Positions 1 to 23,684 of a stretch of DNA of 29,125 nucleotides are shown here, piece by piece. The position numbers and the translations under genes were made by a program. The notes beneath the pieces were generated by a model that worked only from the letters and a program-made list of their open reading frames with translations, searched no databases and was not told where the DNA came from. The DNA is from a virus. The stretch is taken from positions 1 to 29,125 of the IMG/VR virus record IMGVR_UViG_3300047548_000414. One strand, 5' to 3'. Positions within the stretch are counted from its first letter, which is position 1. Each line of letters opens with the position of its first letter.

Positions 1-2
1 CG

Positions 3-527: not shown

Positions 528-545
528 ACATAAGGAACCACTCAC

Positions 546-917: not shown

Positions 918-945
918 CGCGGCACCAGAATAGGAGACAGCAAAC

Positions 946-1965: not shown

Positions 1966-2103
1966 CGGGTTTATGGCGGGCGGCGTGGAAAGCAGACACG
2001 CAGCTAACCTGGGCGGGGGGTCTGCCTCGATGGCGTATCAGGTCAACATCCCCCCAGCCGGAGTAGCGCCCGGCCTCGCCACCAACTCTTGAAGGAAACG
2101 ACA

Positions 2104-3891: not shown

Positions 3892-3901
3892 AGGAAAGCA
3901 C

Positions 3902-4159: not shown

Positions 4160-4176
4160 CCGCAAGGGGTGAGGCC

Positions 4177-4599: not shown

Positions 4600-5456
4600 G
4601 CCGCTTCACGGCGATCAACCTCTCCGGCCTGACGCCGCCCGAGATCATCGAGACCCTCGACTATGAGGCCATCGTCAAGGCGATGCGCGACGACCTTGTC
4701 GCGCGCTTCCCGCTGATCGCAGGGGTCATCGACCTCGAAAGCGAGCCCGCGCGCAAGCTGATCGAGGCCTTCGCCTATCGCGAGATGGGCCTCCGGGCCC
4801 GGATCAACGACGCCGCCCGGGCGGTCCTCCTTGCCTCGTCCTACGGGTCGAACCTTGACCACCTCGGCGCGCTCTTCGCGACCGCCCGGCAGACGGGCGA
4901 GGATGACGAGCGGTTCCGCCGCCGCATCCAGCTTGCGCCCGAGGCGTTTTCGGTCGCCGGTCCCGAAGGGGCCTATCAATACCACGCCCTGACCGTCGCC
5001 CCGTGGGCGCGCGACGTCTCGGCGATCTCGCCCCGGCCGGGCGTCGTCCGGGTCACGGTCCTCAAGACCGGGGCCGACCCGATGCCGACCCTTGCCGAGC
5101 GCGAGGCGATCCGTCTCCACCTCGCGTCCGAGGCGATCCGCCCCTTGACCGACGTCGTCGAGGTCCAGGCTCCGGCGGTCCGCCGGACCCGGATCGTGGC
5201 GCGCCTGACCCTCTATCCCGGCCCGGACGGCGAGGTCGTCCGGCAGCGCGCCATCACGGCGACGACGGCATGGGTCGAGAAGAACCGGATGCTCGGCATG
5301 AACCTCCGGCGCTCGGCGCTCTTTGCGTCGCTCCATCAGGAGGGGGTCCACTCCGTCGACCTCGTCTCGCCCGCGCAGGATCTCGTCCTCGATACGACGG
5401 AGGTCTATGCGCTCGACGGGATCGAGGTCTCGATCAATTCAACCAGAGACGAGTAG
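4596..5456 (+). CDS. J: Baseplate assembly protein J
   Basis: This 286-aa baseplate_J family protein is translationally coupled to W. The recognisable core is 'EPARKLIEAFAYREMGLRARINDAARAVLLASSYGSNLDHLGALF', quoted here only as its span (about residues 48-94): the family's helical region ending in 'LD.LG'. The family's 'GAYQYHALTVAP' and 'VRVTVL' follow in the middle domain. It forms the main wedge subunit around the hub, equivalent to T4 gp6. The length is close to P2 gpJ (302 aa). Confidence 0.92.
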   Translation: MSRFTAINLSGLTPPEIIETLDYEAIVKAMRDDLVARFPLIAGVIDLESEPARKLIEAFAYREMGLRARINDAARAVLLASSYGSNLDHLGALFATARQTGEDDERFRRRIQLAPEAFSVAGPEGAYQYHALTVAPWARDVSAISPRPGVVRVTVLKTGADPMPTLAEREAIRLHLASEAIRPLTDVVEVQAPAVRRTRIVARLTLYPGPDGEVVRQRAITATTAWVEKNRMLGMNLRRSALFASLHQEGVHSVDLVSPAQDLVLDTTEVYALDGIEVSINSTRDE

Positions 5457-5459
5457 CCC

Positions 5460-6701: not shown

Positions 6702-6714
6702 AAGGAACACAGCC

Positions 6715-9000: not shown

Positions 9001-9013
9001 AGGAGCCTGAGAC

Positions 9014-9184
9014 ATGGCGAAGAGCCCCACGCACTACCGCATCACCGTGAACCGCCCGATTGAGGCGTCGAAGATGAACTTCAATCCGGGTGCCAAGTAC
9101 ACGGTGAAGGCTTCGGTTCACGACGCGATCAAGAAGACGGCGGCGGATGCGATTGCATCCGCCGATCCCATGATGATGGAGTAA
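9014..9184 (+). CDS. Small hypothetical protein (56 aa) in fibre operon
   Basis: An ATG at 9014, with AGGAG starting at 9001 about 9 nt upstream, opens a 56-codon frame ending in TAA at 9184. The product starts MAKSPTHYRITVNRPIEA and ends in a run of Met before Glu. It is basic in the middle and predicted helical towards the C-terminus. It is bracketed by 13-nt and 6-nt gaps to its neighbours, so it fits a continuous operon. Phages often carry a small protein of this kind after a fibre gene; the function is unknown. Confidence 0.7.
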   Translation: MAKSPTHYRITVNRPIEASKMNFNPGAKYTVKASVHDAIKKTAADAIASADPMMME

Positions 9185-9190
9185 GGTCCA

Positions 9191-9979
9191 ATGATCAGGT
9201 TCGAGGATCTGCGGGTCCGGGATCAGAACGAACTCGACCGGGACTTCTTCAACCGCCGGTTCCGCCTGATCGCCGAGGCCCTCGGCCAATTGAGCGAGGA
9301 GGTCGCGTCGGTCACGAGCGACACCGACCGCCTCGTCGCTCTCGGCCTCAATCGCGTGAACGAAGTCCTCGGGCCGTTGCTCTCCAAGGTCCAGGCAGCA
9401 GCGGAGAACGGGTTCCTCGTTGCGACGTCAACGACGCCGCTCACGATCTCGCTCGGTCTTGAGACGACGCTCACCGTCACCGCTGGCGACGAGCGGGAAC
9501 TCTTCACCCCGACGCCTTACCTGATGCTGGCGAGGACGGCGGCCAATACCGAGGCCGACTATGCGCTCCTCCGGGTCCAGAATTACAACCGGACCAACGG
9601 CGGCCTTGCCTTCGAGGTCGTGTCCTTGAGCGGCAACATCGGGGCGGCGTCCTATAGCGATTGGGTGGTCTCGGCCTCGGCCGGGATCAGCATCCAAGTG
9701 CTTGAGGCCTCGTCAAACATCGAGGACACGCTCGTCCTCGCCGAACAGGCCGCCGCCGACGCCGCCGACGCGGCAGCGACCGCGCAAGCGGTCCTTGCCT
9801 CGGGCCCGGTCTCCTCGGTCAACGGGAAGGCCGGAACGGTCGTCCTCGGCATCTCGGACATTGCCGGGCTCGTCTCGGCCATCGCCGCCAAGGCCGACAG
9901 CAACCACGGCCACCCGATCTCGGCCATCTCCAACTTGCAATCGACGCTCGACGCTCTGGCCGACGGCGGCACCTACTGA
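9191..9979 (+). CDS. Tail fibre-like protein with C-terminal fibre repeat
   Basis: This 262-aa protein begins with a helical, charged segment (FEDLRVRDQNELDRDFFNRR), followed by a coiled-coil-like region and a beta-rich middle. Near the C-terminus is an Ala-rich helix (AEQAAADAADAAATAQAV), then 'VSSVNGKAGTVVLGISDIAG' and 'NHGHPISAISNLQSTLDAL'. The V..V.GK.G.V.L.ISDI motif with a following HGH(A/P)I element is characteristic of phage tail fibres and also appears in the protein at 22968. It probably forms a trimeric fibre shaft. The receptor is unknown. Confidence 0.7.
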   Translation: MIRFEDLRVRDQNELDRDFFNRRFRLIAEALGQLSEEVASVTSDTDRLVALGLNRVNEVLGPLLSKVQAAAENGFLVATSTTPLTISLGLETTLTVTAGDERELFTPTPYLMLARTAANTEADYALLRVQNYNRTNGGLAFEVVSLSGNIGAASYSDWVVSASAGISIQVLEASSNIEDTLVLAEQAAADAADAAATAQAVLASGPVSSVNGKAGTVVLGISDIAGLVSAIAAKADSNHGHPISAISNLQSTLDALADGGTY

Positions 9980-9990
9980 GGTAAAGGTCC

Positions 9991-10218
9991 ATGACGCAGT
10001 CTGTCATCTCGCAAGTCTCGCAGAAGCTCGCCCTCGGCGGCGTCAAGGATATCGAAGTGACCGATATCGTCGACGACGGGGCGGGCGGCTGGACCCGGGC
10101 GGTGCGCTTCTACGGGACGCCCGCCGTCGGCACCAACAAGGTTCTGGTTCTCGAAGTCCTCTTGCAGTCGGCCATCAAGGCCGAGCTGGCGATCACCACG
10201 CCGGAAATCGACTTCTGA
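9991..10218 (+). CDS. Small hypothetical protein in tail operon
   Basis: This 75-aa protein starts with ATG 9991, after a GAGGTAAAGG stretch. It is short and predicted mostly beta (for example 'WTRAVRFYGTP' and 'KVLVLEVLLQS'). It is the last gene of the fibre block before a hairpin-containing gap and the sheath gene. Similar small proteins accompany fibre genes in other P2-like phages. No family is recognised. Confidence 0.65.
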   Translation: MTQSVISQVSQKLALGGVKDIEVTDIVDDGAGGWTRAVRFYGTPAVGTNKVLVLEVLLQSAIKAELAITTPEIDF

Positions 10219-10261
10219 TCCCGGCCTCCCTTCTTCCCTGATCTCATCAAGTCCGTTCAAC

Positions 10262-10292
10262 GCCCGGCGCGCGGTGCCTCCGTGCGCCGGGC
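10262..10292 (+). terminator. Hairpin between fibre block and sheath gene
   Basis: A perfect 9-bp GC stem (GCCCGGCGC at 10262-10270, GCGCCGGGC at 10284-10292) with a 13-nt loop lies in the 95-nt gap before the sheath gene. Only a mixed CTTCCGTTT follows, so termination would be weak. It may be a partial terminator or an RNA-processing or stability element that separates expression of the very abundant sheath and tube from the upstream baseplate genes. Confidence 0.45.
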
Positions 10293-10313
10293 CTTCCGTT
10301 TAGGAGACACCCA

Positions 10314-11792
10314 ATGTCTGACCCGACCTTTGGCATTTCGATCACGCGGATCGACAACGAACCGCGTCCGGCAGTCTTTTCGGATATGTCGGTTGTGGGG
10401 ATCATCGGCACCGCGCCCGGCGCGGATGCCACCGTGTTCCCCGTGAACTCCCCCGTCTTCATGTATTCCGACGACGCGACCAAGTATGCCGGTCTCGGCA
10501 CGACCGGCACCATCAAGGACGCCATCGACCTGATCAACGCCCAGCTTGGCGAATTCCAGGTCGCCGCGAAGATCGTGGTGGTCCGCGTCACCGAGGGCGC
10601 GAATGCGGGCGCGACGATTGCGAACATCGTCGGCAACGCCAGCCTCAAGACCGGCATCCATGCCTTCGTCGAGGCGGGCCCGGCGCTCGGCGTGATCCCG
10701 CGTCTGCTCTGCGCCCCCGGCTTCACCAGCCAGCGCGAGACCGGCGTCGCTTCTATCGCCGTCACGAATGCGGGCAGCGGCTACACCTCCGCCCCGACCG
10801 TGACCCTGACGGGCGGCGGCGGAACGGGTGCCACGGCGACCGCAACGGTCTCCGGCGGTGCGATCACCGGCTTCGTCATTACCAACGGCGGCAGCGGCTA
10901 CACCTCGGCACCGTCGGTCGGGCTGTCCGGCGGCGGCGGTACGGGTGGCGCTGGCACGGCCACGGTTGCCGATCTCGCCAATCCGGTCTGCGCGGCGCTC
11001 CCCGCCGTCTGCGCCAAGCTCCTCGCTCACGCCGTGGTCGATGGCCCGGCAACGACCGAGGCGGACGCTCTCGATTGGCGCGAGAGCCTCAACTCCGACC
11101 GCCTGATCCCGGTCGATCCCGCCGTGAAGGTCTACATCGGCGGCACCATCGTGACCCGCCCGCTCTCGCCCGCCGTGATCGGCATCGGCGTGCGCCGCGA
11201 TCACGAGAAGCAGGGCCGCCCCTTCCACTCCTGGGCCAACCAGCCGGTGCAGGGCGTCCTCGGACCGTCGCGTCCGATCAACTTCTCGCTCACCGACGGT
11301 GCGACCGAAGGCCAGCGTCTGCTCGCCAACAATGTCGGCGTGCTGCTGCGCGGCGAGATGGGCGTGGAGACGGCAATCGCCTCCGGCGGCTTCGTGTTCG
11401 TCGGCACCGACAATGCGGGCGAGGATGATATCTGGCGCTTCTACAACGTCACGCGCGGTCGCGATTACATCCACCTGATGTTCCTGCGGACGCTGCGCTT
11501 CTACCTCGGGCGCTTCAACCTGACCGGCCAGACCATTCAGGCGGTCCTCAACACCATGAGCTTCGCTCTCCGCGATCTCAAGGCGGACGGGGATATCCTC
11601 GGCTACCAGGTCAAGTTCACCCGTGATCAGAACTCTCCCGAGCAGCTTCGCATGGGTCGGTTCACGATCAACTTCGCCGCCGAGGAGGCCCCCGTCCTCC
11701 GCTACCTCGGCATTCAGTCGTCCCGCTATCGTCCGGCGCTCGATGCGCTGCTCGAGGACCTGCTCGCCCAGGTCGATGCGGTCACCGGTTAA
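10314..11792 (+). CDS. FI: Contractile tail sheath protein (P2 gpFI-like)
   Basis: This 492-aa protein is a sheath subunit. Family features include the N-terminal '[13 protein letters not shown]', '[15 protein letters not shown]' and '[12 protein letters not shown]', the central '[12 protein letters not shown]', and the C-terminal half with '[19 protein letters not shown]', '[20 protein letters not shown]' and '[11 protein letters not shown]'. A ring stack of this protein contracts and drives the tube into the host. It is longer than P2 FI (396 aa), mainly because of an inserted Gly-rich duplicated module at about residues 145-219. AGGAGA precedes the ATG. Confidence 0.95.
10746..10970 (+). 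repeat. Tandem Gly-rich module inserted in sheath gene
   Basis: Two copies of a 39-codon unit lie in tandem. The 17-bp core GGCAGCGGCTACACCTC occurs at 10773-10789 and 10890-10906, a period of 117 nt. Both units encode a hydrophobic strand, then 'GSGYTSAP', a strand, then 'GGGGTG' and an Ala/Thr strand. Modules of this '[10 protein letters not shown]' type are known as decorations in other phage tail and surface proteins. Here they split the sheath between '[11 protein letters not shown]' and '[10 protein letters not shown]', probably projecting from the sheath surface. Confidence 0.8.
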
Positions 11793-11818
11793 TCGTCGCA
11801 CAATAAGGAGCCCTTACC

Positions 11819-12349
11819 ATGAGCACCATTTACATCATGGAGGCCGCAAACTTGTTCTGCGGCGACCACGACCCGACGGCCTCGAAGCACCTCACCCTGG
11901 CCGAACTCAAGCTGCCGCCGCTGCAGGAAATGTACCAGGACCACCATGCCGGTGGTTCCCGGGTCCAGATCGAGGTGGCGGTCGGCATCCAGAAGCTCGA
12001 GCCCACCTTCAAGCTCAACGGCTGGGACCCCGATCTGCTGACGCAGTTCGGGCTCGGCTCGTCCCGGCAGAAGGTGTTCACCGCTTACGGCGTCATCCGC
12101 GACAAGCGGACTGGCGTCGCCATTGAGGCGAAGGCGGTGATCGAAGGCCGCCTCGGCAAGATCGAGAGCGATGCCTTCCAGCGCGGCGAGCTGCAGGGCC
12201 ACGAGTATTCGATCAACGAGGTCATGCACTACGAACTCTGGTTCAACGAGAAGGAAAAGCTCTTCTGGGACTTCTTCTCGACCGAGTGGCGTCTGGACGG
12301 CATCTCGCAGAACGACGACGAGCGCCAGATCCTGCGCATTCAACGCTAA
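11819..12349 (+). CDS. FII: Major tail tube protein (P2 gpFII-like)
   Basis: This 176-aa protein lies directly after the sheath, with an AAGGAGCCC ribosome site. It has the tube-family pattern: 'IYIMEAANLFCGDHDPTASK' at the N-terminus, 'LAELKLPPLQEMYQDHHAGG', and the central beta strands 'VQIEVAVGIQKLEPTFKLNG'. It ends with strand-rich segments around 'EYSINEVMHYELWF'. The length matches P2 gpFII (172 aa). It polymerises as stacked hexameric rings forming the inner tail tube. Confidence 0.95.
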   Translation: MSTIYIMEAANLFCGDHDPTASKHLTLAELKLPPLQEMYQDHHAGGSRVQIEVAVGIQKLEPTFKLNGWDPDLLTQFGLGSSRQKVFTAYGVIRDKRTGVAIEAKAVIEGRLGKIESDAFQRGELQGHEYSINEVMHYELWFNEKEKLFWDFFSTEWRLDGISQNDDERQILRIQR

Positions 12350-12371
12350 CTGATAGACCCCGGAGATCATG

Positions 12372-12641
12372 ATGTCAGATACCGCCCGCCTTAAGCTTCG
12401 CCGTCCTGTGACCATTGGAGAGCAGACCATCTCCGAGGTGACGGTTCGCCGCCCCAAGGTGAAAGACCTTCGGGCGATGGAGAAGGCGCGGGAGCCGGGG
12501 GGCACCGAAATGGATCAGGGCGTCGCAATGGCTGCGGCGCTCTGCGACATTCCGGTCGCGTTCATCGACGAGATGGACGCGGTGGACTTCGCCTCGATCT
12601 CCGAGGTCATCACGGGTTTTTTGCCCAAGGCCCCGGCATAG
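12372..12641 (+). CDS. E: Tail assembly chaperone E (unshifted product)
   Basis: This is an 89-aa small protein after the tube gene, with 'RRPVTIGEQTISEVTVRRP' (the family's 'L..P......eI..v.lR.P') and a C-terminal helix up to 'ITGFLPKAPA'. ATG 12372 is favoured over 12369 because of its spacing to CGGAG at 12361-12365. In P2 such proteins coat the tape measure during tail assembly, and a fraction of ribosomes shift frame to make E+E'. The shift site is annotated separately. The frame ends at TAG 12639-12641. Confidence 0.88.
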   Translation: MSDTARLKLRRPVTIGEQTISEVTVRRPKVKDLRAMEKAREPGGTEMDQGVAMAAALCDIPVAFIDEMDAVDFASISEVITGFLPKAPA

Positions 12642-12775
12642 GGGCATGGCGCGGTGTCGTCGCCGACACCGCGCACATTCTTTCGACACCGATCACGGCG
12701 TTCGACGAAATGGAGTGGTCGGAGGTCGTCCTCTGGCACGCCGAAGCACGCCGCCTCTCGACGCGGCAGGGATAG
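12372..12775 (+). CDS. E': Tail assembly chaperone E+E' fusion by -1 frameshift
   Basis: Translation to the codon TTG at 12621-12623, then continuing in the -1 frame from 12623, gives a 134-aa fusion that ends at TAG 12773-12775, 3 nt before the tape measure ATG. The -1 frame after the site encodes a protein-like segment: 'GAWRGVVADTAHILS', 'TPITAFDEMEWSEVVLWH', 'AEARRL'. This resembles P2-family GpE' domains ('...W....L..W...A..'). E' has no convincing independent start with a ribosome site, which argues for frameshifting. The same strategy is known for P2 E/E' and lambda G/GT. Confidence 0.85.
12617..12645 (+). promoter_or_regulatory. Programmed -1 ribosomal frameshift site
   Basis: The slippery heptamer T TTT TTG (12617-12623) is placed in the zero frame as GGT TTT TTG, the same heptamer used by P2 E/E'. 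A hairpin GCCCC-(6 nt)-GGGGC at 12630-12645 starts 6 nt after the heptamer, the usual spacing of a stimulatory structure. The zero-frame stop codon lies at the 3' side of this hairpin. All three elements are directly visible; the shift efficiency is unknown. Confidence 0.88.
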
Positions 12776-12778
12776 CAC

Positions 12779-15133
12779 ATGGCGAACATCACCTCTCAAC
12801 TGATCGTCCAGCTTCTCGACCAGGTCTCGGGCCCGGCGAAGCAGGTCGGCAATGCGCTGCGCGGGATCACCCGGACGGTGCAGGAGGTGGCCCGCGCGCC
12901 GCTCGATCTCACCACGCGGCTTGACGCCGCGATCACCCGGAACAATCGCGCCCTGGCTAACGCCCGCATGGGCCTCGCGGATGCTGTTGCCGGGTTCTAT
13001 GCCTTACGGACGGCCATTGCGGCCCCGGTCGAGGAAGCCATGCGCTTTGAAAGCGCGATGGCCGACGTGAAGAAGGTGGTCGACTTCCCGACCCCCAAGG
13101 CGTTCGACGACTTCAAGGCCGCGCTCATGGACCTCTCGCGGCAAGTGCCGATGACGGTCAACGGGCTGGCCGAGATCGCCGCCGCTGCCGGTCAGGCGGG
13201 CATTGCCGGACCGGACCTGATCCGCTTTACCGAGGCCGCCGCGAAGATCGGCGTCGCCTTCGATATCTCCGCGCAGGAAGCCGGAGAGGCCATGTCGAAG
13301 ATGATGACCGGCCTCGGCCTGACCATCGACAAGGTGGTCCTGCTCTCTGACGCCATCAACCACCTCTCGAACGCTCAGGCGTCGTCTGCGGCCGAGGTTA
13401 TGGACGTGGTGCGCCGGGTCGGCGCGCAAGCCAAAATGTTCGGCTACACCGCCGAGCAAGTTGCGGCCTTCGGTTCGGCCATGATCGCAGCGGGTGCCGA
13501 TAGCGATGTGGCGGCGACCTCGTTCCGCAACATGGGCCTCGCGCTCACCAAGGGCGCATCGGCGACAAAGGCCCAGCACAACGCCTTCGCCAAACTGGGG
13601 CTAGACCAGTTCTCTGTTGCAGAACGGATGCAGCAAGACGCGGTCGCCACGACGGTCGATGTCCTCGAACGGCTTTCCAAGCTTCCGAAGGAAGTACAGG
13701 CGTCGGTCGCGAGCGACCTCTTCGGCAACGAGGCTCGCGCCTTGGGGCCGCTGCTGACCAATTTGGATCTCGTCTATGCCTCTCTCGGCCTCGTCGGGGA
13801 GCAATCGAAATATGCCGGGTCGGCCTTCCGCGAGTTCGAGAACCGCAACAAGACCTTCGGGTCGGCGCTCCAACGCTTCAACAACATCATCACGATCCTC
13901 AAGATCAGCATCGGGAACGCGCTCCTCCCGGCGCTGAACTCGGTGATGCAATTGATCGCCCCGCTGATCGACGCGGTGTCGCGTCTTGCGACCGCTTTCC
14001 CGAACGTGACGGCGGCGGTCGTTGGGGCGGCTGCGGCATTCGTGGCTCTCCGGGTCGCGATCACCGGCCTGACCTTCCTCGGCCTCATGGGCAAGGGCGG
14101 GATGCTCGCCACGATGGCGGTCGGGGTCCGCACCCTGACGGCTGCGCTTGCCGGTCTCAAGGCGGTGGCGATCACCGGGCCGCTGGCCCTCATGTCCGCC
14201 GGGCTGGTCAAGCTCCGCGCCTCGCTCGTCGGCCTTACCCTCCTCGGGGCGACGGGTGGTGCTGGCTCCGTCTTCAAGACCCTCGGGGCCTCGATCCTGG
14301 GCCTCCTCAATCCGATGAACCTGGTGCGCGCGGCGGCGGTAGCCCTGCGCGGAGCCCTGCTGCTTTCCGGGGTGGGGGCGATCCTCCTCGGCATCGCGGC
14401 GGCGGGCAAGTTCATCTATGACAACTGGTCGGGCATCAAGGAGATGTTCTCGGCCTTCGGGACGGCGTTCACTGCCGCCCTCGGCCCGGTCAAGCCGATG
14501 CTCGACCCGGTGATCTCTGCCGTGGGTTCGCTCTTCGGCTGGCTCGGCAAGCTCTCCTTCGAGATATCGCCGGACCGCTGGCGGGTCTGGGGCGAGGCGG
14601 CTGGCACGGCGGTCGGCAATGTCGTCCGCTGGTTTGCCGAGCTTCCCGCCAAGATCGCCGCCCAGGTCGGGAGCCTCTACGAGATCGGCCGCCAGTTCAT
14701 GACGTCGTTCTTCGACGGGCTTGTGTCCATCGGCAACGATATCCTCAATTGGGCGAGTGGCATCGGCGACAAGATCAGCTCCATGCTGACCTTCTCCGGG
14801 CCGACGCCCACTCCGGCGGTTTCCCCGCGCGGGGGATCGACGGTCGTCCCGGCTCCGGCGCGCGCCCGGGGCGGTCCGGTCTCCCGGGGTTCGACCTACA
14901 TGGTCGGCGAGAAGGGGCCGGAACTGATCACCGCCGGGCGCTCCGGCTACGTGAACAAGGCCGGGGCGGCGGCACAGGCGGGGCCGATCACGGTCGCGCC
15001 GGTCTTCAACATGACATTCAACGGCAAGACCGAACCGGAAGACGTCGTCCAGCAAATCCGCCGCGTCCTCCGCGACGAGGTTCGCGAGACCTTCCGGGGG
15101 GTCTTCTCCGATACCGGAATGAGGATGGCGTAA
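12779..15133 (+). CDS. T: Tail tape measure protein (P2 gpT-like)
   Basis: This is a 784-aa protein, the longest in the window. The N-terminal region is helical and Ala-rich (VQEVARAPLDLTTRLD). The phage tape-measure core has 'FESAMADVKKVVDF', 'VNGLAEIAAAAGQAGIAG', 'GYTAEQVAAFGSAMIAAGAD' and 'EVQASVASDLFGNEAR'. Hydrophobic segments follow at about residues 400-560, and a Pro/Gly-rich linker with 'YMVGEKGPELITAGRSGYV' near the C-terminus. It fixes tail length and is released into the host envelope during ejection. Standard scaling (about 0.15 nm per residue) suggests a tail near 0.12 micrometre. Confidence 0.95.
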   Translation: MANITSQLIVQLLDQVSGPAKQVGNALRGITRTVQEVARAPLDLTTRLDAAITRNNRALANARMGLADAVAGFYALRTAIAAPVEEAMRFESAMADVKKVVDFPTPKAFDDFKAALMDLSRQVPMTVNGLAEIAAAAGQAGIAGPDLIRFTEAAAKIGVAFDISAQEAGEAMSKMMTGLGLTIDKVVLLSDAINHLSNAQASSAAEVMDVVRRVGAQAKMFGYTAEQVAAFGSAMIAAGADSDVAATSFRNMGLALTKGASATKAQHNAFAKLGLDQFSVAERMQQDAVATTVDVLERLSKLPKEVQASVASDLFGNEARALGPLLTNLDLVYASLGLVGEQSKYAGSAFREFENRNKTFGSALQRFNNIITILKISIGNALLPALNSVMQLIAPLIDAVSRLATAFPNVTAAVVGAAAAFVALRVAITGLTFLGLMGKGGMLATMAVGVRTLTAALAGLKAVAITGPLALMSAGLVKLRASLVGLTLLGATGGAGSVFKTLGASILGLLNPMNLVRAAAVALRGALLLSGVGAILLGIAAAGKFIYDNWSGIKEMFSAFGTAFTAALGPVKPMLDPVISAVGSLFGWLGKLSFEISPDRWRVWGEAAGTAVGNVVRWFAELPAKIAAQVGSLYEIGRQFMTSFFDGLVSIGNDILNWASGIGDKISSMLTFSGPTPTPAVSPRGGSTVVPAPARARGGPVSRGSTYMVGEKGPELITAGRSGYVNKAGAAAQAGPITVAPVFNMTFNGKTEPEDVVQQIRRVLRDEVRETFRGVFSDTGMRMA

Positions 15134-15556
15134 ATGCTGATGGCTCTGGGTCCGATCCGGTTCGAGGTCTATCCGTTCAACGTGATGGGCTACGAACACG
15201 AACACGAGACGAGTTTCGTCGAGAAGCCGGTCCTCGGAGCCCGCCCGCCCCTTGAATGGGTGGGCGAGGGGCCGGAGAGCTGGTCTCTCACGGCCAAGAT
15301 ATTCCCCCACAAGTTCGGGGGCCTCGGCGACTTGAAGAAGCTCTATCAGGCGCGGGCGGCGGGCCGCCCACTCTACCTCATGAGGGGCGACGGCGCGCAG
15401 ATGGGGTGGGTCGTGATCGAGAGCGTCAGCGAGCGGTCAACCTTTCTCGACGCCAACGGCATCGGCAAGGTGATCGAGGTCGATATCTGGGTGCGGCGGT
15501 CGTCCAAGCCGTCCAACGGCAGCTTCTTCTCCGCCTTCTCGGGGGTGTTCTCATGA
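15134..15556 (+). CDS. U: Tail protein U (P2 gpU-like)
   Basis: This 140-aa protein starts right at the tape measure stop (ATG 15134; an in-frame ATG at 15140 is the alternative). Family signatures are 'LGPIRFEVYPFN', 'LEWVGEGPESWSLTAKIFP' and 'LYLMRGDGAQMGWVVIESV'. In P2, gpU is needed for tail completion and acts in the T-U-D segment. Position between T and X/D and length (P2 gpU is 159 aa) agree. The stop overlaps the next start (ATGA). Confidence 0.92.
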   Translation: MLMALGPIRFEVYPFNVMGYEHEHETSFVEKPVLGARPPLEWVGEGPESWSLTAKIFPHKFGGLGDLKKLYQARAAGRPLYLMRGDGAQMGWVVIESVSERSTFLDANGIGKVIEVDIWVRRSSKPSNGSFFSAFSGVFS

Positions 15557-15780
15557 GCGACGTGGTCGAGACCATCCGGGTCGAGGGCGAATTCATCACC
15601 GTGTCCCTGATCGTCTGGCGGCGCTTCAAGCGCGCCATGCCAGGGCTCGTGGAAGAGGTGTTCGACCGGAACCCGGGGCTTGCCGCTCACGGCGATTATC
15701 TCCCGGTCGGCACGACCTTCCTCCTGCCGATCCCCACGCCCAGGGCTCCGGCCATGCTCGAACCAATCAAGCTCTGGTGA
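15553..15780 (+). CDS. X: Tail protein X (LysM-like, P2 gpX)
   Basis: This 75-aa protein is coupled to U through ATGA at 15553-15556. The motif 'ITVSLIVWRRFKR', then 'VEEVFDRNPGLAAHGDYLPV' and 'GTTFLLPIP', is the compact LysM-like layout of P2 gpX. It would sit at the baseplate hub and connect tube or spike components. In P2 the X gene lies upstream of lysis genes; in this genome it sits between U and D, as in many P2-like phages of alphaproteobacteria. Confidence 0.9.
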   Translation: MSDVVETIRVEGEFITVSLIVWRRFKRAMPGLVEEVFDRNPGLAAHGDYLPVGTTFLLPIPTPRAPAMLEPIKLW

Positions 15781-15786
15781 TACCGA

Positions 15787-16785
15787 ATGTCGAAGCGCGC
15801 GGTCTTCATGGTTACGGTTGCCGGGACCAATATCACCTCCACGCTCTCGCCGGTCCTCACCTCGATCTCGGTCTCCGACAAGGTCGGTACGCACTCCGAC
15901 ACCGCGACCCTTGAGGTGGACGACACCGAAGGCCGGATCGTGATGCCGCAGATCGGGGCTCCGGTCGTCGTGGCGCTCGGCTGGGAAGGCGAGGGGGTCC
16001 GGGTCGTGTTCACCGGCACGGTGGACGAGGTGAAGTCGGCGGGCTCGCGCGGGAGTGGGCGGACGCTCACGATCTCCGCGAAGGGGATGGACACCACGAA
16101 GAAGCCCAAGGAGGGCCAGCAGCGACACTTCGACGAGATGCCGGTCGCCGATATCTTGAAGGAGGCGGGCAAGCTCGCGGGCATCACCGAGTTCGAGATC
16201 GACCCCTCGCTCGCGTCGATTGTCCGGAAATACTTCGACATGCGGGATGAGAGCTTCATCCACGCGGGCGAACGCCTCGCCCGCGAGATCGGGGGGAACT
16301 TCCGCGTGACCGGGAACAAGGCGGTCATGTCGAAGCGCGGCGGGACGTACACCGCCGCCGTGCGCGCCGCCTGGGGGAAGAACCTTCACTCGTGGGATAT
16401 CTCCCCGTCGCTCGGGCGGACACAGTTCTCCGCCGTGCTGGCGCGCTGGTACGATCCGGTCAAGGCGATCTGGAACGAGATCGAGGAGAAGACCAAGCTC
16501 TCGGTCGATGCCCGGCATCCTCACCGCTTCTCGAAGGCGGACGAGGGCGAGGCCTCGCAGCAGACCGGCTCCGACGCGGCGACCTCGGAACGGGATGCGG
16601 GCGAGGGGAGCGTGACGATTGAGGGGAACACCGAAGCGATCCCCGACGGCCTGTGCATCATCTCTGGTGCGCGGGCGGGTGTTGATGGTGCGTATCGGAT
16701 CGAAAGCGTGACGCACACCTACTCGCGCGGCGGCGGGTTCGTCACTCAACTCAGCTTGAAGCAGCCCAACCAGGGCGGCGGTTAA
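15787..16785 (+). CDS. D: Baseplate hub protein D (late control D family)
   Basis: This 332-aa protein matches the Phage_GPD family: an N-terminal beta barrel ('VSDKVGTHSDTATLEVDD'), 'GWEGEGVRVVFTGTVDEV', the middle 'DTTKKPKEGQQRHF', and 'VRKYFDMRDESFIHAGERL' with 'LAREIGGNFRVTGNK'. The C-terminal domain ends in 'YRIESVTHTYSRGGGFVTQL'. The equivalent of T4 gp27, it forms the ring that carries the spike V. The family name comes from its historical genetic label in P2; no regulatory role is implied. It closes the tail module. Confidence 0.92.
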   Translation: MSKRAVFMVTVAGTNITSTLSPVLTSISVSDKVGTHSDTATLEVDDTEGRIVMPQIGAPVVVALGWEGEGVRVVFTGTVDEVKSAGSRGSGRTLTISAKGMDTTKKPKEGQQRHFDEMPVADILKEAGKLAGITEFEIDPSLASIVRKYFDMRDESFIHAGERLAREIGGNFRVTGNKAVMSKRGGTYTAAVRAAWGKNLHSWDISPSLGRTQFSAVLARWYDPVKAIWNEIEEKTKLSVDARHPHRFSKADEGEASQQTGSDAATSERDAGEGSVTIEGNTEAIPDGLCIISGARAGVDGAYRIESVTHTYSRGGGFVTQLSLKQPNQGGG

Positions 16786-16799
16786 TCGCGGAAATCGTC

Positions 16800-17114
16800 A
16801 TGCAGCAAACACAGTGGGTCTCGGACCTCCCCGGGGTGATCCTGTTCATCATCGGCCTCGGCGGCCTTGCCGGGGCCCTGCTCCTCATCGTCAAGCTCTG
16901 GAAAGAGTTCGTGCCCGACAATCAAGACGCCATGTCCCGGGATATCTCCGCGATCAGAACGGACATTCACGACGTTCGCAAACGGGTCGGGCTCCTCGAA
17001 CTCGACATTGCCAAGATCGACCAGCCCGCGATTGCCCGGCGGTTCGATACATTCGAGCAGAAGCTCGACCGCCTCTACGACCTCCTCCTCGACCGCATCT
17101 CGAAGCAGGGCTAA
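16800..17114 (+). CDS. Small membrane protein with coiled coil, holin candidate
   Basis: This 104-aa protein has a single hydrophobic segment at about residues 12-33 (GVILFIIGLGGLAGALLLIV). A cytoplasmic or periplasmic coiled coil follows (residues 45-100, 'ISAIRTDIHDVRKRVGLLEL'). It is the first gene after the tail module and precedes the endolysin, the usual place of holins or holin-associated proteins. The single transmembrane segment and long coiled coil also fit DUF2730-like phage proteins. The lysis role is inferred from location. The next 161 nt (17115-17275) hold no gene. Confidence 0.6.
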   Translation: MQQTQWVSDLPGVILFIIGLGGLAGALLLIVKLWKEFVPDNQDAMSRDISAIRTDIHDVRKRVGLLELDIAKIDQPAIARRFDTFEQKLDRLYDLLLDRISKQG

Positions 17115-17275
17115 CCCCCGCCGCCAGGATCAACGCCACCCCCGGAAATCTGCTCCGTGGCGGGCTTCTCCGGGCCGCGAGCGATTGCCCTAGCCGAAAC
17201 ACCACAAGGCCGCCCACGGGCCTCCTATGGCCTGGCAAAAACGGGTTGCAAAAACATCAATCCCCGAGGTTCCCA

Positions 17276-17482
17276 ATGTACGACCCGAGAAAGCGGGACG
17301 GGCAAGAGCCCGACTGCGGCATGTACGCGCTCGCCCTCGCCATCCTGCTCGTCCTCGCCGGGGTTTGCCTTGCCGCCATCGGGTTCCTGATCGGCGTGTA
17401 CTTCGGACCGTGGCCGGTTCCGAAACAGGTTCGCCCCGGCGTCATCGCCATCCTTCCCTTCAACATTCACCCGGAGGCCTAA
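17276..17482 (+). CDS. Small membrane protein, holin candidate
   Basis: This 68-aa protein starts with ATG 17276, after a weak GAGGT site, and ends 5 nt before the endolysin start. It has one strong hydrophobic stretch (residues 15-43, 'MYALALAILLVLAGVCLAAI' and 'GFLIGVYFG') and a short Pro-rich C-terminus. Its position just before the endolysin makes it the better holin candidate of the two small membrane proteins. A single-span holin of class III type would fit. No family is recognised. Confidence 0.6.
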   Translation: MYDPRKRDGQEPDCGMYALALAILLVLAGVCLAAIGFLIGVYFGPWPVPKQVRPGVIAILPFNIHPEA

Positions 17483-17487
17483 CAGCC

Positions 17488-18423
17488 ATGTCCGATTACA
17501 TGAAACTCGCCCGTGATCTCGTCGGCACGAAGGAAATCGTTGGCCCTGCCGACAATCCGAAGATCATGGAAATGTATGCCGCCGTCGGCCACGATTGGGT
17601 CGAACATGATGAAACTGCGTGGTGCGCTGCGTTCGTCGGATACTGCCTTGAGAAGTCCGGCCTTCGTTCGACCCGGGCTCTCAACGCCCGGTCCTATCTG
17701 AACTTCGGCGTTGCCGTTGAACTCGCCGATGCGAAGGAGGGCGATATCGTTGTCTTCTCGCGCGGCAAGGAGGCGTGGCAGGGCCACGTCGCGTTCTTCG
17801 TCGCGGCGACCGCCACGCAGATCAAGGTACTCGGCGGCAACCAGACCAATGCCGTGACCATCGCCAACTATGCCAAGACCCGGCTTCTCGGCATCCGCCG
17901 CCCGATCCTCGCGGAGACGAGCCAGACGCCGAGCGTGAAAAGCGTGCAGGAGCAGCTCCGCGCGCTCGGCTACTACGAAGTCGGCGTTCCCGACGGCAAG
18001 TATGGCCCCCGGACCCGCGCTGCGATCCTCGCCTTCCGGGCCGACAACTCCCTGCCGCTCTCGCCCGAGATCGACGCCCAACTCGAGAAGGCTCTGACGA
18101 GCGCGCCGCCCAGGGCGGTCGCGCCGGAGCGCGCCACCGGCAAGCCCGAAGGCTCGCGGATCATCAAGGCCGCCAACGTCCAGCTTGTGACCGGCGTCGT
18201 CGGTGGTGCAACCGCCGTGGCCGCAAACCTCGCGCCCGCCGTCGAGAACGCCGAGCGCGCGAACGGGCTTGTGAAGCGCACCTTCGATCTCCTCCACCTC
18301 GACGTCCTGCTCGGCCCGGCGCTGCCGTGGATATTGGGCGGCATCTGCGCGGTGGTGATCGTCTATGCCATCGCAACGAAGATGGCCCGCGTCGAGGACC
18401 ACCAGACCGGGCGCACGCCGTGA
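17488..18423 (+). CDS. Endolysin: cysteine peptidase/amidase, peptidoglycan-binding domain, C-terminal TM
   Basis: This 311-aa protein is taken from ATG 17488; the frame is open further upstream, but GGAGG at 17473-17477 supports this start. Residues 1-140 form a CHAP-like domain of the TIGR02594 type, with C46 in 'TAWCAAFVGYC' and H100 in 'WQGHVAFFV' as likely catalytic residues. Residues 148-202 are a PG_binding_1 domain ('VQEQLRALGYYEVGVPDGKY'). A hydrophobic segment at about 277-298 sits near the C-terminus. It would cleave peptidoglycan during lysis. A C-terminal membrane segment is unusual in an endolysin. Confidence 0.88.
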   Translation: MSDYMKLARDLVGTKEIVGPADNPKIMEMYAAVGHDWVEHDETAWCAAFVGYCLEKSGLRSTRALNARSYLNFGVAVELADAKEGDIVVFSRGKEAWQGHVAFFVAATATQIKVLGGNQTNAVTIANYAKTRLLGIRRPILAETSQTPSVKSVQEQLRALGYYEVGVPDGKYGPRTRAAILAFRADNSLPLSPEIDAQLEKALTSAPPRAVAPERATGKPEGSRIIKAANVQLVTGVVGGATAVAANLAPAVENAERANGLVKRTFDLLHLDVLLGPALPWILGGICAVVIVYAIATKMARVEDHQTGRTP

Positions 18424-18816: not shown

Positions 18817-19019
18817 GCGGTGTTCTGTTCTTCAGCAAGAGCCCGTTCAAGCTCCCCGACCCGACGCAATCCGAGATCGTCGTGCCCTACGAACTCCCGA
18901 CCCTCGATGGCGGTGCGCCCGACACCGACCACGAGGGCGGCGTGACCCTCGATTGCGGAAGCCCCACCACCACGACGACCGTGCGGACCATTGATGGCCG
19001 TATTGATGGAGCGATTTGA
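18813..19019 (+). CDS. Small hypothetical protein upstream of fibre gene
   Basis: GTG at 18813 overlaps the spanin stop (GTGA); an earlier in-frame GTG is at 18804. The 68-aa product starts 'MSGVLFFSKSPFKLPDP' and is rich in Asp, Gly and Thr. It overlaps the next gene by one base (TGATGA region at 19017-19021), so it is part of one translationally coupled string. No family is recognised. Its place suggests a tail or fibre accessory protein. Confidence 0.6.
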   Translation: MSGVLFFSKSPFKLPDPTQSEIVVPYELPTLDGGAPDTDHEGGVTLDCGSPTTTTTVRTIDGRIDGAI

Positions 19020-19780
19020 TGACCACCACCGTTCTCGCCAGAATTCAGATGCGCCGTGGCCTCGCCGCCGAGTGGGCGGCGGCTAACCCCGTCCTCGCGC
19101 AGGGCGAGCTTGCCTTCGAGACCGACACCGGCCGCACCAAGATCGGCGACGGTGAAACCGTGTATCTCGATCTCCCGGCTTACGCGACCTATGACCAGAT
19201 GGTGGAGGCGCTTGCGGACATCGAGACTGCGCGCGATGCAGCCTTGGCTGCGGCTTCAGCGGCAGATGATGATGCCGACAGGGCCGTCGCAGCCGCTGAT
19301 CGCATAGATCTGGGGTCCTTCGACTCCGATGTGGCCGCGACCGCAAGCGCCAAGACCGCCGCAGAGTCCGCGAGAGATGCGGCAGTGGTGGCGAAAAACG
19401 CCGCCGAGGCGGCCAACACCCAGGCGCAGGCTGCGTCGAACGTGCACGAGGCGGTGGCGGGAAACGTCGGCACGCTCATGGCCGCCTTCGGGCAGGCGTG
19501 GGAAGAACTGCAGAAGGTGATGGATGGCCAAGACGACAACGCGCTCGGCGCGGTCCACGTCGCCAACCTCGCGCAGATCATCGGGCAAATGGCCGATCAG
19601 ATCAACGGCGGCCGCATCACGCTGGCTGGAGGAACTCTTGCCGATCCGGCCATCCGCCTCGGGACCGTCGGCATCTACAGCTCGGCGGCCAACACCCTCT
19701 CCGTGGCGATCGCGGGTGTTGAGCGGCTGCGCGTCACCGCGAGCGGAATCACGGTCTACGGCACGGTCACAAACGCATAG
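19019..19780 (+). CDS. Tail fibre protein with Mtd-like N-terminal domain
   Basis: This 253-aa protein starts at ATG 19019. Residues 1-60 ('IQMRRGLAAEWAAANPVLAQ', then 'GELAFETDTGRTKIGDG') have the pattern of the N-terminal beta-prism domain of the Bordetella phage major tropism determinant and many other fibres. A long Ala-rich helical segment follows (about 65-150), with 'AESARDAAVVAKNAAEAANT'. The C-terminal part is beta-rich and ends 'RLRVTASGITVYGTV', which looks like a fibre tip or chaperone-proximal end. It lies two genes upstream of the DGR target and may form part of the same fibre complex; that is inference. Confidence 0.78.
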   Translation: MTTTVLARIQMRRGLAAEWAAANPVLAQGELAFETDTGRTKIGDGETVYLDLPAYATYDQMVEALADIETARDAALAAASAADDDADRAVAAADRIDLGSFDSDVAATASAKTAAESARDAAVVAKNAAEAANTQAQAASNVHEAVAGNVGTLMAAFGQAWEELQKVMDGQDDNALGAVHVANLAQIIGQMADQINGGRITLAGGTLADPAIRLGTVGIYSSAANTLSVAIAGVERLRVTASGITVYGTVTNA

Positions 19781-19788
19781 GATAACCC

Positions 19789-20124
19789 ATGGGATACAAG
19801 CTAAATCAAAGCCCGGTTGCTGGCGAAAGCTACCAGCGCTGTTTGCAGGTGGTCATCGACAATCCACTCGCCGGTCAGCCAACGGTGATGTTCAGTCAGG
19901 AGACGGTCGTCGGCACGGATGCGGGAGCCGTGGTGAGGATCCCGATGCAGCCGTTGGCCATGCCATTCGACCCTGACGCCGAGATCCCGGTCATCAACCC
20001 GGAGACGGGCGAGCCCACAGGGGCGGTCGTCACCCAAGCCGAAGTCTACACCCTGATCTTTTCCGCTTACGTCGCCGCGGCAAACCCGCCGCCGTCTGCT
20101 CTTGAATTCGAGGAGGAACCCTGA
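19789..20124 (+). CDS. Fibre-associated hypothetical protein directly upstream of DGR target
   Basis: This 111-aa protein begins 'MGYKLNQSPVAGESYQRC', similar to the 'MGIKLKRSAVAGK' start of the fibre gene after the DGR (22968). The rest is beta-rich with a conserved-looking 'PFDPDAEIPVINPETGEP' and an acidic C-terminus (ALEFEEEP). TGATG at 20122-20126 couples its stop to the target start, so the two proteins are likely made together. It may be a tail-attachment protein or a chaperone for the diversified protein. No family is assigned. Confidence 0.65.
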   Translation: MGYKLNQSPVAGESYQRCLQVVIDNPLAGQPTVMFSQETVVGTDAGAVVRIPMQPLAMPFDPDAEIPVINPETGEPTGAVVTQAEVYTLIFSAYVAAANPPPSALEFEEEP

Positions 20125-21167
20125 TGACCGTTTCCGCCGCCGCCCAAGCCAACCTGCGCCGCCAGGTCGAGACCATGTCGAACGGCGACATGACCGTTCG
20201 CTTTACGGCCAAAGGCCAGCCCAGCTACTTCTGCCGTCTGCGCAAATTCACCGTTCAGAGCCTTGATGCAAGCCTCGGCACTGGCGTCCATCCGGCATTC
20301 ATCGTGGGCGGCGTCGAGAAGGACGAGATCCTGATCGGCATTCACCAAGCCGCAGAGGTCAATGGCGAGATGGTGTCTCAGGCTGGCATCGTTCCTCGCG
20401 CAAGCATTACCCATGATGCGGCAGTGACCATGGCCCGCAACACCGGGACCGGGTTCTGCGTCGCCACCAATGCTATGTACGCGGCTCTCGCCCTGCAATG
20501 CAGGGCGGCGGCCCGCTTCCCGCGCGGCAACAACAACAACGGGCGCGCATACAATGCGACCGATGAAGTCGGCATCAATGACAGCGGCAACCCAACCACA
20601 GGCGGCAGCGGACACACCGTTATCCGCTCTGGGTCAGGGCCGATTGCATGGAACCACCCCGCGACGCCTTGGGGCATCCAGAACCTGAATGGCAATGTCT
20701 GGGAGTGGTCGCCCGGCATGCGCATTGTCGCTGGCGAAATCCAGATCATCGAGAACAACAACGCAGCGCTGGCGGCCACCGATCTCAGCACGGCTGGGCC
20801 GTGGCAGGCGATCCTCGCTGCGGATGGAACGCTGGTCGCGCCGGGCACATCTGGCACGGTCAAGTATGCCACATCAGGAACGACCGCCGGGACGCTGGTC
20901 TGCGCCAACGGCGGGGCGTTCTCTTCGATGACTGCCAATTCGGTATCGACGGCGGCGCTTCAGAGATTGCGCCAGCTTGGGCTTATGCAGCCGGGCGCGC
21001 CAATCGAGGCGGATGGTTTTTACATTGACATGACGAGCGAGCGTCTGCCGATCCGTGGCGGCGACTGGGGCGGTGGTTCGCGGGCTGGGGTCTTCGCCCT
21101 GGCCCTGACCATTGCCCGGTCGTCCCCGGACGCGGGCATCGGCTTTCGCCCCGCTTTCGTGCCCTGA
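20124..21167 (+). CDS. DGR target: variable receptor-binding protein with FGE/C-type-lectin-like domain
   Basis: This 347-aa protein has a strong AGGAGG site at 20111-20116. The N-terminal ~85 residues are probably for attachment or oligomerisation. From about residue 90 to the end there is a formylglycine-generating-enzyme-like (C-type-lectin) fold: 'GTGFCVATNAMYAALAL', 'ARFPRGNNNNGRAY', 'NLNGNVWEW' (189-195 for NGNVWEW) and the final 'GIGFRPAFVP'. The last 42 residues are encoded by the variable repeat. Twelve residues differ from the template: 314, 316, 317, 320, 327, 329, 330 and 334-338. The protein keeps its scaffold and changes the binding surface. No catalytic enzyme role is implied. 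Confidence 0.93.
   Translation: MTVSAAAQANLRRQVETMSNGDMTVRFTAKGQPSYFCRLRKFTVQSLDASLGTGVHPAFIVGGVEKDEILIGIHQAAEVNGEMVSQAGIVPRASITHDAAVTMARNTGTGFCVATNAMYAALALQCRAAARFPRGNNNNGRAYNATDEVGINDSGNPTTGGSGHTVIRSGSGPIAWNHPATPWGIQNLNGNVWEWSPGMRIVAGEIQIIENNNAALAATDLSTAGPWQAILAADGTLVAPGTSGTVKYATSGTTAGTLVCANGGAFSSMTANSVSTAALQRLRQLGLMQPGAPIEADGFYIDMTSERLPIRGGDWGGGSRAGVFALALTIARSSPDAGIGFRPAFVP
21039..21155 (+). repeat. DGR variable repeat (VR)
   Basis: This 117-bp stretch aligns without gaps to the template repeat (21587-21703; constant offset 548). There are 17 mismatches, all at TR adenines; substitutions are A to G (11), A to C (4) and A to T (2). The invariant 3' end (GGCTTTCGCCCCGCT) is the likely initiation-of-mutagenic-homing region. 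Homology ends 12 bp before the target stop codon. Confidence 0.97.
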
Positions 21168-21190
21168 TATCTGAAACCCTGAAATCTGAG

Positions 21191-21210
21191 GTCCGCGCGA
21201 TAGCGCGGGC
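21191..21210 (+). promoter_or_regulatory. GATA-tetraloop hairpin downstream of VR (DGR target recognition element)
   Basis: An 8-bp stem (GTCCGCGC at 21191-21198, GCGCGGGC at 21203-21210, one G-T pair) encloses a GATA loop. It lies 35 nt after the end of VR homology and 24 nt after the target stop. In the Bordetella phage BPP-1 DGR, a short hairpin or cruciform with a 4-nt GRNA loop downstream of VR is required for efficient homing. GATA fits GRNA, and no copy follows the TR, which would mark the VR as the recipient. Confidence 0.8.
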
Positions 21211-21234
21211 CCTACTTCTGCCGGGAGGCACCGC

Positions 21235-21588
21235 TTGGACGATCTTAAAATCCGGCAGAAGTGCGAGGAAATGATCGTCTATGGCTACGTGGCGCTCAGG
21301 CAGCTCCCCAAGTACGAGCGCCATGTGCTGGCCGCCGAAATCAGGACATCGATGTGGACGCTGTTGCGGCTGATCATCCTCTGCAACAAGCGCTACCACA
21401 AGAAGACCACGATGCAGGACTTGGACGCCGAGCTTGACCTCTTGAGGTGCCAAGTGCGGACGGCCTATGCGCTGCAGTACATAGACGTGAAGAAGTACGA
21501 GATTTGGTCCCGGCACCTCGATGAGGTCGGGCGGATGATCGGCGGCTGGTTCAAGTCGCTGAGCAGAGGGGCTGTGGGTGATACTTGA
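21235..21588 (+). CDS. avd: DGR accessory variability determinant (Avd)
   Basis: This 117-aa protein starts at TTG 21235, six nt after GGGAGG (21223-21228). It is all-helical and basic, with the Avd-family pattern: 'YGYVALRQLPKYERHVLAAE', 'LLRLIILCNKRYHKKTTMQD', 'LDAELDLLRCQVR' and 'KYEIWSRHLDEVGRMIGGWF'. Avd is a four-helix bundle that assembles as a pentameric ring, binds the reverse transcriptase and the template RNA, and is needed for cDNA synthesis. The stop TGA (21586-21588) overlaps the first bases of the TR, so the avd 3' end is part of the template RNA region. Confidence 0.92.
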   Translation: MDDLKIRQKCEEMIVYGYVALRQLPKYERHVLAAEIRTSMWTLLRLIILCNKRYHKKTTMQDLDAELDLLRCQVRTAYALQYIDVKKYEIWSRHLDEVGRMIGGWFKSLSRGAVGDT

Positions 21589-21703
21589 GCGTCTGCCGAT
21601 CCGTGGCGGCAACTGGAACAATGGTTCGCAGGCTGGGGTCTTCGCCCTGAACCTGAACAATGCCCGGTCGAACACGAACACGAACATCGGCTTTCGCCCC
21701 GCT
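21587..21703 (+). repeat. DGR template repeat (TR)
   Basis: This 117-bp template contains 24 adenines, concentrated in nine AAY codons plus ACG (two) and CAG when read in the VR frame. These are exactly the codons whose mutation gives wide amino-acid choice without stop codons (AAY cannot become a stop by A changes alone). It lies between avd and the reverse transcriptase gene, as in BPP-1. It is not itself translated in any supported gene. Confidence 0.97.
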
Positions 21704-21866
21704 CTCGGGGAACGTCAGAAGGCGGCGGCCCAAGGGCCTCCGTTCGGTACCCCCTCGAAAGGACCCGCAGTCCTCGGCCAAGTGCCGAAAAACATGAACA
21801 GGCCGGGGTGTCGCAGTAGCCGGGAACGGTGAACCCTCGCCCCGGCCAACAACCAGAAGGTCCACG
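21587..21866 (+). ncRNA. Probable DGR template RNA (TR plus 163-nt spacer)
   Basis: After the TR, 163 nt (21704-21866) precede the reverse transcriptase ATG and hold no supported gene. In BPP-1 the functional RNA comprises TR plus a structured spacer of roughly 140 nt, which binds RT-Avd and provides the cDNA priming site; here the length and position agree. The spacer is GC-rich with possible pairing segments (CCGGGAACGG, CCCCGGCC), but I did not derive a full fold. Ends of the transcript are not known. Confidence 0.65.
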
Positions 21867-22949
21867 ATGGCGAAGACATTCACGAACCTCTGGGAAGAAA
21901 TCATCCAGTTTGAGACGCTTCTGCTGGCGTGGGAACGGACCGCAAAGGGCCGCAGGCGGCAGCGCGACGTGATCTCGTTCCGCGCGAACCTTGAGCCCAA
22001 CCTGATCGAAATTCAGGAGAGCCTGATCCACAGGACATACCGCACCGGTCCGTATCACAGGTTTTTCGTCTATGAGCCAAAGAAGCGCCAGATCGCTTCG
22101 CTGCCGCTCAAGGACAGGGTAGTGCAGCACGCGCTCGTCCACGTTATCGAGCCGATCTTCGAGGCGCGCTTTATTGATCAGTCGTTTGCCTGCCGCCATG
22201 GGAAGGGGGCTCACAAGGGGGCCGACACTGTCCAAGACTATATTCAGAGCGTCAAGCGCACCCACGGCAATGTCTACGTCCTCAAGGGCGACATTTCAAA
22301 GTATTTTCCATCTGTCTGTCATGATGTGCTTCGGCGCATTGTCGCCAAGAAAATTCAATGCAGCGAAACGCTGTGGCTCATCAATGCCATCCTCGATAGC
22401 GCGGCAGATGGAGACACTCTCATGCCGCGCGGCATTCCCATCGGGAACCTCACCTCCCAGATGTTTGCCAATGTCTACCTCAATGAGCTTGACCACTTCG
22501 TGAAGCACACGCTGCGAGAGCCGCATTACGTGCGCTACATGGATGACTTCGTGATCGTGGGGCACGACAAGCAGCAGCTTCACGACCAGCGCAAGGCGCT
22601 CGAAGACTACCTCTGGGCCGAACTTGGCCTGCGGACCAACACGAAGACGCAGGTATTCCTTGTCGGAGACGGCGGCCGCGCGCTTGATTTCCTTGGCTAC
22701 AAGATATGGCCCACCCACCGGGCTCTGCGAAAAGACAGCATCCACCGGATGAAGCGCAAAATCCGCCGGATGATGAAGCTCTACCATCAAGGCGAGCTGA
22801 CGCTCGACGACATCGAGCCCGTTCTTGTTTCATGGGCCGGACACGCGAAGCACGCCAACACCTATAATCTTAGGTCAAAGGTCCTCGGCGGCGCCAGCTT
22901 CGTCCCGCCTCCGCTGCGAATGCAGCGGCCACCACCCCACGCTAGATAG
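21867..22949 (+). CDS. DGR reverse transcriptase
   Basis: This 360-aa protein starts at ATG 21867, six nt after AGAAGG (21855-21860). It has retroelement RT motifs in order: 'KKRQIASLPLKDRVVQHAL' (fingers), motif A 'VLKGDISKYF' with D142, 'GIPIGNLTSQMFANVYLNEL' (189-208; the DGR-typical I/LGxxxSQ box), the catalytic 'YMDD' at 224-227, and the thumb-proximal 'LDFLGYKI'. The size is typical of DGR RTs, and there is no maturase or endonuclease domain, so it is not a group II intron RT. It copies TR RNA with errors at adenines, and the cDNA replaces the VR. GC content looks lower than in neighbouring tail genes. Confidence 0.97.
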   Translation: MAKTFTNLWEEIIQFETLLLAWERTAKGRRRQRDVISFRANLEPNLIEIQESLIHRTYRTGPYHRFFVYEPKKRQIASLPLKDRVVQHALVHVIEPIFEARFIDQSFACRHGKGAHKGADTVQDYIQSVKRTHGNVYVLKGDISKYFPSVCHDVLRRIVAKKIQCSETLWLINAILDSAADGDTLMPRGIPIGNLTSQMFANVYLNELDHFVKHTLREPHYVRYMDDFVIVGHDKQQLHDQRKALEDYLWAELGLRTNTKTQVFLVGDGGRALDFLGYKIWPTHRALRKDSIHRMKRKIRRMMKLYHQGELTLDDIEPVLVSWAGHAKHANTYNLRSKVLGGASFVPPPLRMQRPPPHAR

Positions 22950-22967: not shown

Positions 22968-23684
22968 ATGGGTATCAAGCTGAAACGGTCGGCGGTTGCC
23001 GGTAAGGTTCCGCAGCTGACCGATCTCGAACTCGGCGAACTCGCCATGAACACGGCGGATGGCAAGATCTATCTGAAGAAGAGCGTCGGCGGGACCGAGA
23101 GCATCGTGGAGGTCGGGAACGTCACCTCCGTCGCCGGGAAGACCGGCATCGTCACGCTCGCCATCTCGGATATCCCGAGCCTCCAAGGGGCCCTCGACGG
23201 GAAGGCCGCTGCGAGCCACGCCCACGCCATCGCCAACGTGACGGGTCTACAGGGCGCGCTCGACGCGAAGGCACCTCTGGCCTCTCCGGCCTTTGATGGC
23301 ACCCCGACCGCGCCGGATCTCCCGGCCTACACGAACACGCTCCAGATCGCGACCGCCGCCCTGGTCTACAAGAACGCGACCCGCGTCCCGATCAACTGGC
23401 AGAACGTGGCGGCCTATACTCTGGTCGTCGAAGACAGCGGCAAGATGGTGCAGCTTGAATGGGGCACCGCGATTACGCTCACCGTTCCCGCTGGCGTCTT
23501 CGGCCCGGGTCGAAGGATCGACATCACGCAACTCGGAGCCGGACAGGTCTCGGTCGTCGCCGGGGCCGGGATGACGATCTACTCGAACGGCAACCAGCTA
23601 AAGCTCGCCGGGCAATACGCCGCCGCCACGCTCCACTTCTGGGATGCGAACCGGGTCCAGCTCATCGGAGACATCGTGGCATGA
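22968..23684 (+). CDS. Tail fibre protein with repeat motifs
   Basis: This 238-aa protein lies directly after the RT. The N-terminus 'MGIKLKRSAVAGKVPQLTDL', then 'ELGELAMNTADGKIYLKK', is common in phage fibre and hyaluronidase-type proteins. It is followed by 'VTSVAGKTGIVTLAISDIPS' and 'HAHAIANVTGLQGALDAKA', shared in pattern with the fibre at 9191. The C-terminal part is a beta-rich domain ('YTLVVEDSGKMVQLEWGTAI'). It probably forms a fibre shaft and tip. It and the 19789 gene share an N-terminal start and bracket the DGR. Confidence 0.78.
   Translation: MGIKLKRSAVAGKVPQLTDLELGELAMNTADGKIYLKKSVGGTESIVEVGNVTSVAGKTGIVTLAISDIPSLQGALDGKAAASHAHAIANVTGLQGALDAKAPLASPAFDGTPTAPDLPAYTNTLQIATAALVYKNATRVPINWQNVAAYTLVVEDSGKMVQLEWGTAITLTVPAGVFGPGRRIDITQLGAGQVSVVAGAGMTIYSNGNQLKLAGQYAAATLHFWDANRVQLIGDIVA

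Follow-up and report, generated by a model that had tools for sequence, protein, structure and literature searches.

A complete diversity-generating retroelement of the BPP-1/TaqVP type, with a lectin-fold target, in a contractile-tail phage

Does the region 20124-22949 of a 29,125-base virus record carry a complete and working diversity-generating retroelement (DGR), and is the protein that it would diversify the receptor-binding protein of the phage? The whole 29,125-base stretch was analysed and is referred to below as the window. The identification of a DGR is essentially certain, being backed by the reverse transcriptase (RT), Avd, the repeat pair, the hairpin, the spacer RNA and target homology. 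We estimate at about 96% the probability of the full reading, namely that a complete phage DGR of the BPP-1/TaqVP type is present here, working as proposed, and that its target is most likely a receptor-binding protein.

The anatomy is directly visible in the sequence. All the parts announced in the preliminary description are present on the + strand (as are the fibre-like and 111-aa genes described below), in the order target, variable repeat (VR), hairpin, avd, template repeat (TR), spacer and RT gene, which is the order of BPP-1. VR (21039..21155, 117 nt) forms the 3' end of the target coding sequence, of which it covers residues 306-344, while TR (21587..21703) lies outside the target, between avd and the RT gene, and overlaps the final 2 nt of avd. 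The two copies lie 548 bases apart. All 93 non-adenine positions are the same in both, and 17 of the 24 TR adenines are changed in VR (hypergeometric P 2.9e-15); the 24 adenine columns counted earlier are thus correct. Relative to TR, VR shows 11 changes from A to G, four from A to C and two from A to T. A weaker, 121-nt version of the match (hypergeometric P 2.6e-14) reaches 21159 and adds the sole non-adenine difference, C to T at 21156, which is where the shared IMH-like end stops. This end (21138..21159), located by sequence comparison and named by analogy with the BPP-1 IMH, is marked by ATCGGCTTTCGCCCCGCT, common to VR and TR, after which the copies diverge; the shared end is 18 nt long, and with the divergence that follows, it corresponds to the IMH/IMH* pair of phage DGRs. 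Nine codons of TR, read in the VR frame, are AAY, and A occurs in six others; none of these can turn into a stop. Twelve of them are altered in the present VR, and TR could give rise to about 1.6e14 protein variants. A window-wide scan revealed no other A-biased repeat pair, nor a second VR that would go with this TR.

Two structured elements accompany the repeats. A hairpin/cruciform (21190..21211) starts 34 nt past the VR end, with a GC-rich 9-bp stem (GGTCCGCGC/GCGCGGGCC) and a GATA loop that matches the GRNA consensus. Published phage DGR hairpins are found at 4-34 bp from VR, with GC-rich stems of 7-10 bp and loops of the GRNA type (PMC3240598), so this one fits the phage DGR kind in stem, loop and distance. 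A comparable hairpin after VR was found in 45 of 84 scanned sequences and in none of 84 shuffled controls. The spacer between TR and the RT gene (21704..21866) is predicted to be a structured RNA with covarying helices. Across nine relatives, five helices are retained, with standard pairs in 93.6% of pair cells, and 15 pairs are altered on both sides, versus 7.9 in shuffles (none of 500 shuffles was as high); the helices collapse in every slid control. This covariation is in line with published work on BPP-1, where the spacer is reported to fold to recruit RT-Avd and to prime cDNA synthesis (PMC12875486); it backs a known feature rather than revealing a new one. An Rfam search of the window, spacer included, returned no match. 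The covariation across relatives is strong, and a covariance model for this DGR group appears feasible.

The RT (21867..22949, 360 aa) carries both motifs reported earlier, IGNLTSQ and YMDD, which match the [ILV]GxxxSQ box and YxDD of DGR enzymes. It is assigned to phrog_1423 (E 1e-146), and its best solved relative is RT entry 8UB7 (E 5e-71), versus 1e-23 for the best group II RT. In a maximum-likelihood tree, rooted at the midpoint and with group II RTs as the only outgroups, 30 DGR-type RTs are separated from five group II intron RTs with 100/100 support. The window RT is nested among the DGR-type RTs, grouped with those of loci L003 and L002, rather than falling outside the DGR clade, the placement that had been named beforehand as incompatible with a DGR. 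The avd gene (21235..21588, TTG start) encodes an accessory variability determinant of 117 aa, which scores above the NCBIfam equivalog cut-off (NF033474, 125.5 bits versus 80), matches Pfam bAvd (108 bits) and phrog_3206, and shares 25% identity with BPP-1 Avd (E 2e-6).

The target gene (20124..21167) encodes a 347-aa protein with a predicted FGE-type C-type-lectin fold, homologous to the variable protein TaqVP of a Thermus aquaticus prophage. As a Pfam search returned no family for this protein, the fold assignment rests on a PDB match and a model. The target is assigned to phrog_2889 (E 2e-110) and matches TaqVP (PDB 5VF4) along its length in phmmer (E 3e-71). An AlphaFold (AF2) model built from 49 related sequences has a mean pLDDT of 95, and Foldseek retrieves TaqVP chains as its top matches (TM 0.90, 39-40% identity); TvpA, Mtd and FGE come next, as weak matches. 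The model thus places VR at the C-terminus of what would be a C-type-lectin fold of the FGE subtype, the arrangement that defines FGE-subtype DGR variable proteins. This subtype is common to TaqVP, TvpA and Mtd (PMC6328139). The suggestion that an FGE-like target distinguishes this phage from BPP-1 was therefore wrong, as Mtd is likewise FGE-type. Where the structures do differ is in the additional trimerising domains of Mtd: TaqVP consists of a single domain, and the present target matches TaqVP along its length.

Directly upstream, a tail-fibre-like gene (19019..19780) encodes a protein with an Mtd_N domain (PF18454, E 7e-16), although a BLASTP comparison of this protein with Mtd gave no significant alignment. 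The C-terminal part of the fibre-like gene is kept upstream of the target in the closest relatives, and the gene likely belongs to the same tail-tip module as the DGR target. The Mtd N-terminal domain thus sits here on a gene separate from the target. Between the two lies a gene for a 111-aa protein (19789..20124), whose stop overlaps the target start and which adjoins the target in at least nine relatives. The model of this protein is mostly beta and fairly confident (mean pLDDT 83). A fold search gave no usable PDB match and just two uncharacterised BFVD matches with E <0.01, and no similarity to the small gene at the same place in phage Bise was detectable. That it acts as an adaptor or chaperone is our guess.

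Activity was assessed from relatives. Summed over 81 of them, VR differences number 1013 at TR-adenine columns and 45 elsewhere, but the scan that detects TR/VR pairs rewards adenine mismatches; this ratio is thus inflated and we discount it as evidence. The same scan gives adenine-only differences in BPP-1 (17), VP58.5 (12) and Bise (9). More direct are 13 pairs of related loci with flanks at least 95% identical and different VRs, which show 194 differences at TR-A columns and 16 elsewhere, although these pairs are not independent and come from loci picked by the same scan, with a bias smaller than in the summed count. In four related viral contigs (L059, L060, L061 and L062), VRs differ solely at adenine columns, at 11-15 of them per pair. 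These contigs have an identical TR while the surrounding DNA is 4-11% different, which suggests strong constraint on TR. A lack of adenine-column variation among related phages, named beforehand as the other outcome that would refute the DGR reading, was not seen. As near-identical relatives differ in VR almost only at TR-adenine columns, the DGR lineage appears to be active. Other samples were searched with a TR pattern that left the adenine columns free. No near-identical record of this phage came up, although very near ones may be absent from the searched set, so that for the present DGR copy we infer activity from its lineage: it is probably working.

The mechanism would be that of BPP-1, from which the biochemical steps are transposed by analogy. 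The RNA spanning avd, TR and spacer would be bound to RT and Avd, and TR would be copied into cDNA by the RT, with random bases placed opposite adenines. This cDNA would then take the place of the 3'-terminal VR of the target gene, with the IMH-like end and the hairpin as guides. As a result, some 12-15 codons for the binding face of the lectin fold, in a protein of the tail region, would be rewritten.

Could the repeat pair simply be an ordinary duplication of the target 3' end, lying beside a group II intron-like RT? The RT does match the NCBIfam group II model, albeit far under its cut-off (154 versus 300 bits). Set against this, 17 of 17 differences fall at adenines (P 3e-15), an Avd is present, and the RT stands apart from group II RTs with full support. 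The adenine pattern and the RT tree lead us to reject a simple duplication, which we regard as having next to no chance of being correct. A DGR that is intact in sequence but now silent, its VR differences being the fossil of past rewriting, is a more serious proposal, given that the search brought up no second isolate in which recent change could be seen. Yet the target, hairpin, avd, TR and RT are each open or undamaged, the relatives appear to be active, and VR and TR have not drifted apart, as they show no non-adenine difference. We thus consider present silence quite improbable.

A further doubt concerns what the diversified protein does. Its position and homology make it likely that the target is a receptor-binding protein carried in the virion. 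It might instead be a virion surface protein with a role other than adsorption, such as binding to mucus or particles; no receptor is known for it, and the literature consulted contains no demonstration that any target of the TaqVP type serves in adsorption. However, the target gene lies at the end of the tail module, adjoining the fibre with the Mtd_N domain, and the protein has the FGE-type fold in common with Mtd, a proven adhesin (PMC6328139). A role outside adsorption is therefore unlikely in our view.

Compared with BPP-1 (mtd-avd-TR-brt), the locus has the same order of parts, TR directly after avd, a spacer of about 140-160 nt, a GRNA-loop hairpin, a homologous RT (about 40% identity), an FGE-type C-type-lectin target and adenine-specific TR/VR differences (in BPP-1 the same scan finds differences at 17 of 23 TR adenines). 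It differs in its target, which is TaqVP-like and lacks the trimerising domains of Mtd, in the Mtd_N domain on a separate upstream gene and in its contractile, P2-like tail. The Thermus aquaticus prophage DGR has the same avd-TR-RT order (PMC6328139), but TaqVP is longer (381 aa) and belongs to a different phage. A P2-like tail combined with a lambda-like head had also been put forward as setting this phage apart from BPP-1. Both are real (Tail_P2_I, GpU, FII tube and sheath for the tail; capsid E, decoration and protease for the head), but a P2-like tail with such a cassette already occurs in Vibrio phage VP58.5. There, an FGE-type target, avd and RT adjoin P2-like baseplate genes, with a TR/VR pair found by the scan. 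Vibrio phage VHML likewise has FGE-type target and RT homologues. Target identity to these two phages is just about 33%, and the VP58.5 cassette lies between tail fibre and sheath, whereas the present one comes after the tape measure and endolysin genes.

Much closer are the IMG/VR loci L162, L002, L003, L168 and L180 (RT 71-75%, Avd 80-85% and target 69-77% identical), which also have the upstream 111-aa gene and the fibre C-terminus. The opposite case is provided by Microcystis phage Mae-JY30 (L189), a DGR-less relative. Its head-tail module is syntenic with positions 1-18423 of the window and in the same order (sheath 65% and tube 67% identical), and both phages have about 65% G+C, but nothing in Mae-JY30 matches the block from the fibre gene to RT (about 19.0-22.9 kb). 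Judging from this gene content, DGR and target together resemble a tail-tip module that can be exchanged. A bolder and rather doubtful extension is that the block of fibre, 111-aa protein, target, avd, TR and RT is transferred whole into contractile-tail phages of unrelated background, the 111-aa protein being an adaptor or chaperone that would fix a single-domain DGR lectin to an Mtd_N-type fibre, replacing the trimerising part of Mtd.

The locus is a further clear example of a well-known kind of DGR, its layout and target type being already known from other phages; a large survey of public IMG genomes and metagenomes found many phage DGRs with lectin-fold tail targets (PMC8144416). Understanding of DGRs is unchanged by this finding. 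Its contribution is a complete and well-defined DGR whose target has a high-confidence model, from a phage that has a contractile tail and is known from sequence alone. Related loci also supply natural pairs in which rewriting of adenine columns is seen, and covariation in the spacer alignment supports an RNA structure whose importance in BPP-1 was already known. Finally, the gene that follows the RT (22968-23684) carries phage tail repeats (PTR), with a match to a Mae-JY30 fibre gene in the repeat part.
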